Assembly (NCBI GenBank): GCA_029338835.1
Contig: JAQYBD010000085.1
Span: forward strand, 1 to 39,543
Direction: 5' to 3'
Source of the DNA: Selenomonadaceae bacterium
GTDB lineage: Bacteria; Bacillota; Negativicutes; Selenomonadales; Selenomonadaceae
DNA length: 39,543 nucleotides
In this document: in pieces, positions 31,904 through 36,786 of the stretch
Layout: each line of letters opens with the position of its first letter
Position numbering within the stretch: the first letter of the stretch is position 1
Notes under the pieces: model-generated
What the model saw: the letters and a program-made list of their open reading frames with translations, nothing else
What the model was told of the DNA's origin: nothing
Database searches by the model: none
Program-made: the position numbers and the translations under genes

Positions 31904-32377
31904 ATGGGAATTTTCAAGAAACGCATTGGCCGGATGCCTTTTCTCGTTATCAGCCTGGGGATTTATCTGCTGGCTCCTCTGTACGTTGCTCATGCCTGGG
32001 AACATCGCGCTTTGACACGGTATTTTACAGAACCACAAGGGCTCTTGGCTGGCTTCTTTCGCATCTTGGGTGATGGAGTGCCCTGCTTTTTCGCACATCA
32101 GGCTGGTGCCGGGACATCCCTGGAGATGACGATCCCGTTTGTATTGACCTTGATGCTGGTGACACTCTGGCGATGCAATGATTGCCGGGCGAGCCGCCGT
32201 TGTCTCGTCTTGCAGTGCCTGCCCATCGCAAGCCTGTTCGCCTTTGTCTATCTGAGTGCGCGCACGACATATCAGCCGCGTCGGCGCATGGCTGTGCGCA
32301 GGCAAGAGGACTGTAGCCGGACAAGCTGGCTGGGAAATCTCGAACACGACAGGAGGGGGCAGCGTCATATTGCTTAA
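31904..32377 (+). CDS. Small membrane protein, possibly DUF805-like
   Basis: A 157-residue protein with three likely membrane helices: about 12-30 (FLVISLGIYLLAPLYVA), 74-88 (MTIPFVLTLMLVTLW) and 102-117 (VLQCLPIASLFAFVYL). The N-terminal KKRIGRMPFLVISL and the later LWRCNDCRASRRC-LPI arrangement faintly resemble DUF805 proteins (RGRIGRxxFW, RRLHDxGRSGWW), but the conserved His/Asp are not kept. The region 89-99 is rich in Cys and Arg. The hydrophilic C-terminal 40 residues look unlike the rest and may be frameshifted or simply divergent. AGGAGG precedes the ATG. Function unknown. Confidence 0.6.
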   Translation: MGIFKKRIGRMPFLVISLGIYLLAPLYVAHAWEHRALTRYFTEPQGLLAGFFRILGDGVPCFFAHQAGAGTSLEMTIPFVLTLMLVTLWRCNDCRASRRCLVLQCLPIASLFAFVYLSARTTYQPRRRMAVRRQEDCSRTSWLGNLEHDRRGQRHIA

Positions 32378-32406
32378 GCCAGCCGGTTGGTGCGGGGAGG
32401 GATGCC

Positions 32407-32435
32407 TTGCACCTCCTGCAGTCAGATGATAGAAT
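32407..32435 (+). promoter_or_regulatory. Promoter of the XRE-ImmA pair
   Basis: TTGCAC (32407-32412) and TAGAAT (32430-32435) with 17-bp spacing. The leader to the regulator start is about 95 nt. No clear operator repeat was found near the promoter. Confidence 0.6.
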
Positions 32436-32536
32436 GGAAGCAACGCAATCAACATGGCCGTTTCGCATAAAGAAGCAGCTCATGGTAAATCGGAACCGTA
32501 GGATATTTTTGGATGGCCTGAGAGAGGATGGATCTT

Positions 32537-32941
32537 GTGAAATTCTGTGATAAATTGCTTCAGCTGCGGCGTGCCCGCAAGCTGACACAGAAAGAGGTGG
32601 CTGCTGCCTGTGGCATTACGCGTCAGACATACAGCGGCTATGAATCGGGTGACCGTTATCCGAAGAAGAAGGAGACGTATCAGGTGCTGGCAGATTTTTT
32701 CGATGTCAGCTTTGCTTACCTTTACACGGATGACGAGATGTTCATTGAGGCAGCAGGGGAACAGTATGGCAGTCGCGGGATGGCGCAAGCTAGAGATCTC
32801 GTGAGCCGTCTGGCTGGGATGTTTGCGGGCGGCGAGCTTTCCGACCAGGACCGTGAGGCCGTCATGCGCTCTCTGGAGCGTGCTTATTGGCTGGCCAAAG
32901 AGGACAACAAGAAGTATACACCGAAAAAATATCGGAAATGA
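32537..32941 (+). CDS. XRE-family helix-turn-helix transcriptional regulator
   Basis: A 134-residue regulator. The Cro/C1-type HTH occupies about residues 3-60: KFCDKLLQLRRARKLTQKEVAAACGITRQTYSGYESGDRYP, then VLADFFDVSFAYLY. The C-terminal half is helical and ends in a lysine-rich tail. I prefer the GTG at 32537 because AGAGAGG lies 9 nt upstream; the ATG at 32528 touches that sequence, leaving no spacing. It is followed 30 nt later by an ImmA/IrrE-type peptidase. In known pairs (ImmR/ImmA, DdrO/IrrE) the peptidase cleaves the XRE repressor. The regulator's targets are not visible. Confidence 0.88.
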   Translation: MKFCDKLLQLRRARKLTQKEVAAACGITRQTYSGYESGDRYPKKKETYQVLADFFDVSFAYLYTDDEMFIEAAGEQYGSRGMAQARDLVSRLAGMFAGGELSDQDREAVMRSLERAYWLAKEDNKKYTPKKYRK

Positions 32942-32971
32942 GAGTCTTGAGATGGGAAGTGACGGGACGGG

Positions 32972-33490
32972 ATGAATTCGCTACAGCTTTATCGGAAGGC
33001 GCAGCAAGTGAAAGCAAAGTCGGCAGCACGGGATATGCTGGGACTTGCAACAGAATTGGGCATTCTTGTCGAGTTTTCCGATGATTATAAGGATTTGCTC
33101 GGGATGTACTACAGCCATTGGCATCATCGCTTCATTTTCCTTAACAGCCGCCTTGACGAGGATTGGCTGCCGATGGTTGTAGCGCATGAGATCGGACATG
33201 ACCAGCTTCACCGGACCCTGGCGCAAGCCGGCCTGCAGGAATTTGAACTTTTCCGCATGAATAACCGTACGGAATATGAGGCCAATGCCTTTGCTTCCCA
33301 TCTGCTGCTGGATAATGAAGAAGTTTACCATCTGGTGCGCGAAGGTGCGGACATTGATACGATCTCCAAATGCATGCACTGCAACATCAATCTCATGCTC
33401 ATCAAGATGCGGGAGATGGCATCTTTGGGCTATGACCTGCGCCTTACCGATACGGCTGACAGCCATTTTTTCAAGCATATCCATGCGTGA
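32972..33490 (+). CDS. ImmA/IrrE family metallo-endopeptidase
   Basis: A 172-residue protein with the zinc-peptidase motif HEIGH at 72-76 (PMVVAHEIGHDQLH). The third ligand is probably E103 in RTEYEANAFASHLLLD, as in COG2856 peptidases. RFIFLNSRLDEDWLPMVVAHEIGHD is the usual context. Family members cleave XRE-type repressors after a signal, derepressing mobile elements or stress genes. It is encoded directly behind an XRE gene, so the pair may act as one regulatory switch. The same arrangement has also been predicted as a toxin-antitoxin type. No integrative element is nearby. The ribosome-binding site is weak (GACGGGACGG). Confidence 0.9.
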   Translation: MNSLQLYRKAQQVKAKSAARDMLGLATELGILVEFSDDYKDLLGMYYSHWHHRFIFLNSRLDEDWLPMVVAHEIGHDQLHRTLAQAGLQEFELFRMNNRTEYEANAFASHLLLDNEEVYHLVREGADIDTISKCMHCNINLMLIKMREMASLGYDLRLTDTADSHFFKHIHA

Positions 33491-33549
33491 CGGCAATTTG
33501 TGTGATTGGTTACGGCAGGACAGCAAACTGCTGTGGTAAAGTAGATGGG

Positions 33550-33602
33550 AGCATTGCCCTCCCCCTGACCGGCGGGAGCCGTCCGGCACTGCGGACAGGA
33601 CG
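33550..33602. other. GC-rich intergenic hairpin sequence
   Basis: The 157-nt gap after the peptidase gene holds a GC-rich stretch in which CCGTCCG can pair with CGGAC-A-GG around loop GCACTG. There is no T run. It resembles the type of GC-rich intergenic repeat seen at 16087 and 22910 only loosely. Confidence 0.3.
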
Positions 33603-33647
33603 ATAGGACAGGATGAAAATAGGGAACGACAGAAAGGCGGTTAAGGG

Positions 33648-34109
33648 ATGCAGGTTTTGACATGCAGGGAAAAGGCAGGCTGGAATATAGCCTTGGCAGA
33701 ACTCACAGGAACTTCACTGGAAGAGATTGCCAAAGAAGTCTTGAGGGAATACGGGCTCAATGCACAGTTTCCTTTTACGTATCTTGGTGTAGAGTACACG
33801 GTATTCTACGATGATGAGATTTTTACACGCGGCAGGAAGACCATTGTGGCCACGTTGTATCTTCAGGGGGATGCGACTCACAGCTATCTCGACCCTGAGG
33901 GGCCGGATCTCGTCTTTGGTGATTTTGTCATCGTGGGCGGACATGCTCATGACGGTGTCCTCAAGGGACTCGGAGAAGATGATGTCAAAAAGCTCTCGAC
34001 GTTTATCCTGGAAAGTGAGGCGACGCTCAAGGAGATGCGCCAGGCAAAATTGTTCCGCGATAACGAGACAATCCGTTCGGCTCTTGTCCAGCGACGTTTT
34101 GCCAAATGA
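33648..34109 (+). CDS. Hypothetical protein, no recognised family
   Basis: A 153-residue soluble, acidic protein. The N-terminus has CREKAGWNIALAELTGTSLEEIAKEVLREYG, with a helix that looks amphipathic. A central segment YLGVEYTVFYDDEIFTRGRKTIVATLYLQGDATHSYLDPEGPDLVFGDFVIVGGH is beta-rich. A charged helix ends the protein. No signal peptide, membrane segment or catalytic motif is seen. AAAGGCGG stands 8 nt before the ATG. It is the first gene after the XRE/ImmA pair, and its codon use looks like that of its neighbours. Function unknown. Confidence 0.7.
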   Translation: MQVLTCREKAGWNIALAELTGTSLEEIAKEVLREYGLNAQFPFTYLGVEYTVFYDDEIFTRGRKTIVATLYLQGDATHSYLDPEGPDLVFGDFVIVGGHAHDGVLKGLGEDDVKKLSTFILESEATLKEMRQAKLFRDNETIRSALVQRRFAK

Positions 34110-34210
34110 TGGCCGACGCAGTTGCAGCACGAAGGAACTGCCCTATATTCCGGATGGGCGCTTCGGCTTTGCACGCAGAAGCTGGCAGAAGAAAAGAAAG
34201 GTGGATGCGC

Positions 34211-34687
34211 ATGCGCAGGCATGACCGGGAAATCAAGGAATGGGCAGATCTTATTGCCGTGATCAGGCGGGCTCAGGTATGCCGCCTGGCTCTTAATGAT
34301 GAAGACGGCTTTCCTTATATCTTGCCCTTGAATTTTGGCATGGAAGAGAGGGAGGGGAAGCTGCGACTCTTTTTCCACAGTGCCTTGGAAGGGCGCAAGT
34401 TTGAACTCATGAAGCGGGACAACCGTGCTTCATTTGAACTGGATGGCAAGCATCAGTTGCAGTATTTTGCAGAACAGGGGTATTGTACGTATGCTTACGA
34501 GAGCATCGTTGGCAAGGGGCATCTTTTCATGGTGCCTGATGATGAGAAGCAGGCAGCACTTGCGTGCTTGATGGATCATTATCATCCAGGTGAACATGCC
34601 TATTTCAACCCTGCAGCTATCCCGCGCACAGCAGTCTACTGCCTTGAGGTCGACTCCTTCACGGGCAAGCGTAAGCTGCCGAAATGA
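34211..34687 (+). CDS. Pyridoxamine 5'-phosphate oxidase-like flavin-binding protein (NimA-like)
   Basis: A 158-residue protein of the PNPOx-like split-barrel family. The N-terminus MRRHDREIKEWADLIAVIRRAQVCRLALNDEDGFPYILPLNFGME resembles NimA/5-nitroimidazole-reductase-type proteins, where this segment binds FMN. LRLFFHSALEGRKFELMKRDNRASFELD and the later YESIVGKGHLFMV segment are typical. The C-terminus contains AVYCLEVDSFTGKRKLPK, a usual family end. ATG 34211 with AAGGTGG 6 nt upstream is preferred over ATG 34205 and over an upstream in-frame ATG that overlaps the preceding gene. The substrate is unknown; members of the family reduce flavins or nitro compounds. Confidence 0.85.
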   Translation: MRRHDREIKEWADLIAVIRRAQVCRLALNDEDGFPYILPLNFGMEEREGKLRLFFHSALEGRKFELMKRDNRASFELDGKHQLQYFAEQGYCTYAYESIVGKGHLFMVPDDEKQAALACLMDHYHPGEHAYFNPAAIPRTAVYCLEVDSFTGKRKLPK

Positions 34688-34721
34688 TCATAGGACTACG
34701 GGATTGAAGATGCTTTTATGC

Positions 34722-34750
34722 TTTTGACTGCTTCCGTAAAGCAGTCAAAA
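34722..34750. terminator. Bidirectional-type hairpin after the PNPOx-like gene
   Basis: A 12-bp stem TTTTGACTGCTT / AAGCAGTCAAAA with a 5-nt loop lies 34 nt after the stop codon. The T run is absent on the right side, so its strength as a terminator is uncertain. Confidence 0.6.
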
Positions 34751-34788
34751 TCTGGCTGCTCTTTGTACCTATCCGCCTGGGATAGATA

Positions 34789-34832
34789 AGACGAAATTTG
34801 TCGATAATTCGCGATAAATTTCGTCTTTTTTG
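34789..34832 (+). terminator. Strong intrinsic terminator
   Basis: An 11-bp stem AGACGAAATTT / AAATTTCGTCT with a 16-nt loop leads into seven T residues. It is the second of three hairpins in a row upstream of the micropeptide promoter. Confidence 0.85.
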
Positions 34833-34848
34833 TTTGCTCGTTCGGATT

Positions 34849-34877
34849 CTATCGGTTTTCTTTCGATAGTTATTTTT
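34849..34877 (+). terminator. Third hairpin of the series, terminator-like
   Basis: CTATCG (34849-34854) pairs with CGATAG (34864-34869) around a T-rich loop and is followed by TTATTTTTT. Short stem, good T run. Confidence 0.55.
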
Positions 34878-34897
34878 TGAACGAATTCGCAAAAAAG

Positions 34898-34928
34898 TTG
34901 TGTCACAGCGCCAAAAGTATGTTATAAT
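34898..34928 (+). promoter_or_regulatory. Extended -10 promoter of the micropeptide pair
   Basis: TGTTATAAT (34920-34928) is an extended -10 box; a weak -35 such as TTGTGT (34898-34903) stands 19 bp upstream. The start would be about 35 nt before the first micropeptide. It is isolated from upstream transcription by two or three terminators. Confidence 0.7.
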
Positions 34929-34969
34929 ATGAACAAATGAAATCAATGAAATAAATAGGAGGATAAATC

Positions 34970-35041
34970 ATGGCTATTGTTATTTTGGGGATTATGATTA
35001 CGTTTGTTCTTTGCCTTTGCGGTGTATTCACGACAGATTGA
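34970..35041 (+). CDS. Hydrophobic micropeptide, copy 1 (23 residues)
   Basis: A 24-codon ORF (MAIVILGIMI at the start, polar TTD at the end) preceded by AGGAGG with 7-nt spacing. Residues 2-20 form a single hydrophobic stretch long enough to span a membrane, with two cysteines (C15, C17) and a Gly at 18. It is nearly identical to copy 2, 162 nt downstream. The ORF is too short for standard gene finding, but the ribosome-binding site, the promoter and the synonymous pattern of differences support it. Small type I toxins and small regulatory subunits of membrane enzymes have this shape; I cannot assign either role. Confidence 0.75.
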   Translation: MAIVILGIMITFVLCLCGVFTTD

Positions 35042-35131
35042 GGATTTTAGGCATATTGATAGGGATATCCTGTGATGTCTGCATGGATTTTTACTTTGTG
35101 CTTCTAGTAACTTTTTATGGAGGGATAAATC

Positions 35132-35203
35132 ATGGCTATTGTTGTTTTGGGGATTATGATTACGTTTGTCCTTTGCCTTTGCGGTGTGTTCACGACGGAC
35201 TGA
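35132..35203 (+). CDS. Hydrophobic micropeptide, copy 2 (23 residues)
   Basis: The second 24-codon ORF differs from copy 1 at five nucleotides. Four are third-position synonymous changes (codons 13, 19, 22, 23); the fifth changes Ile5 to Val. GGAGGG stands 7 nt before the ATG, and the bases immediately upstream (GGATAAATC) are also shared. The 90-nt spacer between the copies is not repeated. No separate promoter is clear, so both may be on one transcript ending at the hairpin at 35268-35312. Confidence 0.75.
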   Translation: MAIVVLGIMITFVLCLCGVFTTD

Positions 35204-35267
35204 ATGCTTTTTGACAAAAGTTTTTGGGAAGGTCATGATGGCAATTATCAATGATATATATACGTAC

Positions 35268-35312
35268 AAAACAGGGCTCCTGCCTGCAACTGCAGCAATG
35301 GAGCCCTGTTTT
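35268..35312. terminator. Bidirectional terminator between micropeptides and the GH1 gene
   Basis: A 13-bp perfect stem AAAACAGGGCTCC / GGAGCCCTGTTTT with a 19-nt loop has A/T runs on both sides. It can end the plus-strand micropeptide transcript and the minus-strand glucosidase transcript, whose stop codon is 14 nt away. Confidence 0.85.
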
Positions 35313-35325
35313 AGTGAAGAATTTA

Positions 35326-36786
<1,461 letters not shown>

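Follow-up and report, generated by a model that had tools for sequence, protein, structure and literature searches.

Does a tandem pair of very small ORFs in a Selenomonadaceae genome encode a peptide, and what might this peptide do? Micropeptides of such length escape annotation and homology searches. One of the few ways to recognise an orphan as a likely gene from the sequence alone is to find it repeated within its genome. We analysed this question in a window of 39,543 nt (contig JAQYBD010000085.1 of assembly GCA_029338835.1, forward strand), i.e. the whole stretch of DNA available around the pair.

The two ORFs are on the plus strand, at 34970-35041 (MAIVILGIMITFVLCLCGVFTTD) and 35132-35203 (MAIVVLGIMITFVLCLCGVFTTD). 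As described in the initial annotation, each has 24 codons (23 residues), starts with ATG and has a ribosome-binding site 7 nt before this start: GGAGG at 34958-34962 for copy 1 and GGAGGG at 35119-35124 for copy 2, the latter possibly part of a local hairpin. They belong to a repeat family of the window, an 81-nt unit present in 2 copies with a period of 162 nt and 94% identity, a match that is beyond chance. The unit consists of the tail of the ribosome-binding site, the ORF and the stop codon. This coincidence of borders suggests a simple screen for other orphans. The initial annotation was also correct on the period and on the existence of a non-repeated spacer, with one precision: the second ATG follows the first stop after 90 nt, of which 81 (35042-35122) have no similarity to the repeat and the last 9 are part of it. 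Outer flanks and spacer resemble neither the repeat nor one another. We ruled out that the spacer is a decayed third copy (22 of the 81 positions are identical in register, against a shuffled mean of 24.3). An assembly artefact is unlikely, given the five differences between the copies and the unique flanks of each.

We then compared the two ORFs base by base. As first reported, one of the five differences changes Ile to Val (I5V) and the others are synonymous third-position changes (V13, V19, T22 and D23). All five are transitions. Third positions are identical in 19 of the 23 codons. Among the 22 shared residues, 18 have identical codons, when 10.7 would be expected for independent codons (p = 0.0007). 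Hence, the two ORFs have a common descent. The initial annotation went further and proposed purifying selection on the peptide. Five random substitutions would produce at most one residue change with a probability of 0.023-0.037, which speaks for selection at p about 0.02-0.04, but there are only five changes and frame 1 of the minus strand likewise shows 1 non-synonymous change among 5. The estimates of dN (0.019) and dS (0.30) between the copies have the same narrow base of five changes. Purifying selection is thus only suggested by the substitutions. The tight borders of the repeat, together with the 19 of 23 identical third positions, favour a precise duplication or a subsequent gene conversion over the preservation of old copies by selection only. 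After the duplication and drift of a larger segment, the flanks would be expected to be still recognisable at a synonymous divergence near 0.3, and they are not. Hence, probably either only the cassette was duplicated or the ORFs were homogenised by gene conversion after the flanks had diverged. Both scenarios would fit the data equally well.

The predicted peptide is hydrophobic and uncharged along a single stretch, ends in a polar C-terminus and has no basic residues. It has one predicted membrane helix and a best 18-residue hydropathy of 2.9. Among the 37 short ORFs of the window led by a ribosome-binding site, the pair has a best 16-residue mean of 3.0, and the next has 1.6. We extended this analysis to 1.25 Mb of the same genome (about 56%), where only 25 such ORFs reach a hydropathy of 2.2 and no second near-identical pair occurs among these 25. 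Elsewhere in the genome there is a single-copy, SD-led micro-ORF of 25 residues (L172, 18458-18535 in reverse-complement coordinates), whose hydropathy of 3.8 is above that of the pair.

The surroundings of the ORFs have the features of an independent unit. A promoter-like site with an extended -10 (GTGTCA-17-TATAAT, preceded by TG) is found at 34900-34928 on the plus strand; it matches 10 of the 12 consensus positions plus the TG, and 41 nt separate its end from the first ATG. Upstream of it, a terminator-like 16-bp stem with a T tail (34788-34827, plus strand) would end the preceding gene and isolate the unit. Downstream, 65 nt after the second ORF, a perfect 13-bp inverted repeat (35268-35312) forms a bidirectional terminator-like stem, which would be common to the unit and to the converging GH1 gene; the segment including it folds at z = -3.7. 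Hence, the claims that the pair has its own extended -10 promoter isolated by terminators, and that it encodes a duplicated single-span membrane peptide, are well supported by the sequence, the former in the form of consensus matches. Both ORFs are probably on one transcript. The leader of copy 1 is less structured than shuffled sequences (z = +1.2) and is thus predicted to be open, and the ribosome-binding site of copy 2 may be partly paired, with ordinary stability (z = -0.45). We also observed a palindrome, TGTGTCACA, over the -35 element (34899-34907), and CGAATTCG just upstream of the -35, which might constitute an operator.

We searched for relatives of the peptide at increasing phylogenetic distances. 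A protein search of its own genome retrieved only the two copies. The peptide search of related genomes that had been proposed as a check of selection found no copy, intact or broken: two congeners were negative, and 189 genomes of the family or order, 380 of the class and 398 of a phylum sample gave no homologue, only weak matches. Those inspected (in G005, G199, G200, G372, G193, G091, G500/G751, G735 and G503) were rejected because they are in other frames or are segments of longer frames. For example, one match covers 19 residues at 68% in a frame of ~636 codons, with E = 0.002 per genome, which is not significant over 398 genomes. Two others (G028 and G029) have E about 0.4 and lie in frames of 581 and 723 codons. 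At the DNA level, the family genomes share only ribosome-binding-site leaders with the locus. Phages, plasmids, Pfam, PHROGs, NCBIfam, PADLOC and PDB gave no homologue. Scans of genome and viral collections with degenerate patterns gave about the number of matches expected by chance, none of them a matching short ORF. It is important to highlight that distant relatives would be missed at 23 residues, so what can be claimed is the lack of a detectable relative and not uniqueness. With this reading, the pair is a credible lineage-restricted orphan. A direct consequence is that conservation of the peptide cannot be shown.

The genomic context also appears to be variable. The neighbours of the pair are a gene for a PNPOx-like protein and the converging GH1 gene. 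We found ybaK in both congeners, and none of the other neighbours (31904-36738) is near it in these genomes. This suggests that 31904-36738 is a variable or inserted region. The PNPOx-family protein (34106-34687, plus strand) has sub-cutoff similarity to Nim nitroimidazole reductases. Further upstream, at 32528-33490 on the same strand, an Xre-type HTH gene is followed by a gene for an ImmA/IrrE-type metallopeptidase. In PADLOC they match capH/capP and RmrA weakly, and they may be the paired regulators of a defence locus or mobile element.

What could such a peptide do? We tentatively favour, at somewhat less than an even chance, a unit restricted to this lineage: its two genes would encode a single-span membrane micropeptide that acts on a membrane partner, the duplication serving dose and gene conversion perhaps homogenising the copies. 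A stand-alone unit of ~390 nt, once transcribed and translated, would yield a pair of almost identical peptides of 23 residues, with a separate ribosome-binding site for each. The peptide would span the cytoplasmic membrane as a single helix without charges, at about residues 3-20, leaving a short polar end (TTD). The two copies would raise the dose, which is the simplest reason for the duplication. By helix-helix contact, the peptide would then most probably act on a lineage-specific membrane protein, as a regulator or accessory subunit. The precise duplication of tail and ORF, the shared descent, the outlying hydropathy, the promoter-like and terminator-like sites, the open leader and the lack of an antisense promoter above the shuffled level all speak for this reading. 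Against it, no partner gene shares an operon with the pair, the genomes searched contain no relative, and the substitutions make a weak test; were the partner conserved in the family, its subunit should have been retained there too. Should the peptide prove to be a regulator, it would be a membrane micropeptide specific to its lineage, in a group that has been studied little. In a more specific version, which we regard as unlikely, the micropeptide would be species-specific and possibly de novo, and would regulate a membrane protein in a dose-dependent way, its tandem pair being kept by gene conversion confined to the ribosome-binding site and the ORF.

The main rival is a membrane-depolarising toxin like Ibs or ShoB, an excess of which would arrest growth and which an antisense RNA, a trans-acting RNA or a repressor would hold down. 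Length, hydrophobicity, repetition and lineage restriction all fit a toxin. The peptide lacks basic residues; a review (PMC8309996) notes that sequence conservation is missing among type I toxins and that IbsC, ShoB and DinQ have no basic C-termini. The initial annotation had seen no convincing antisense promoter, and indeed the best minus-strand score (8.5) is below the shuffled mean (9.2). The Rfam search also found no antitoxin RNA, nor any other match above threshold. Two copies with consensus ribosome-binding sites would be dangerous unless tightly repressed. Hence, because of the lack of an antisense promoter above the shuffled level, the unstructured leader of copy 1 and the absence of basic residues, we consider a type I toxin possible but doubtful, less likely than the membrane regulator or subunit.

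The pair may also be untranslated, either a DNA or RNA repeat element of 81 nt or the functionless product of a recent chance duplication. This would explain the lack of homologues and the substitutions, which do not single out the plus frame, the minus frame 1 being equal. Yet, the borders coincide with the ribosome-binding-site tail and the stop codon, the spacing is kept, the hydropathy is extreme, shuffled sequences fold at least as well as the repeat on both strands and Rfam has no match above threshold, which makes this quite improbable. A secreted peptide duplicated for output, either a pheromone precursor or bacteriocin-like, has the length of short hydrophobic pheromone precursors, and exported peptides are known to be encoded by small ORFs in tandem, each with its own ribosome-binding site, but the least probable reading is this one, given that it has no basic N-terminus, recognisable export signal or recognised neighbouring receptor or transporter gene.

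Finally, we compared the pair with known systems. As for pheromones of the RRNPP (SHP) kind, no TPR-type receptor gene was recognised between about 31.9 and 38.6 kb, and the HTH protein encoded at 32528 is 137 residues long. The operons of the phenol-soluble modulin alpha type resemble the pair in having near-identical ORFs of 20-odd residues, without signal peptide, on one transcript, but their products are amphipathic with basic residues whereas ours is uniformly hydrophobic and has none. The peptide resembles Ibs (of Ibs/Sib) and ShoB, whose sequence similarity was checked through profile libraries only, in its about 20 highly hydrophobic residues, single span and non-basic C-terminus, and Ibs also occurs as repeats. 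Like type I toxins, it is hydrophobic, under 60 residues and has one predicted membrane helix. It differs from them in that no antisense promoter above the shuffled level was found, in that the repeat covers only the ribosome-binding-site tail and the ORF, and in that the predicted mRNA structure, open in the leader of copy 1 and of ordinary stability at copy 2, would not hide the ribosome-binding sites. AcrZ, MgtS, CydX and KdpF are likewise short single-helix membrane peptides, and the micropeptide would, as they do, act on a membrane partner. It differs from this kind in lacking family relatives, a partner operon (no gene of a CydX- or KdpF-type complex adjoins the pair) and a profile match (no Pfam or NCBIfam family up to E 10 or 1, with the limited sensitivity of short profiles). 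While assigning it to no named family, we infer that the micropeptide works most like these small single-span membrane proteins.
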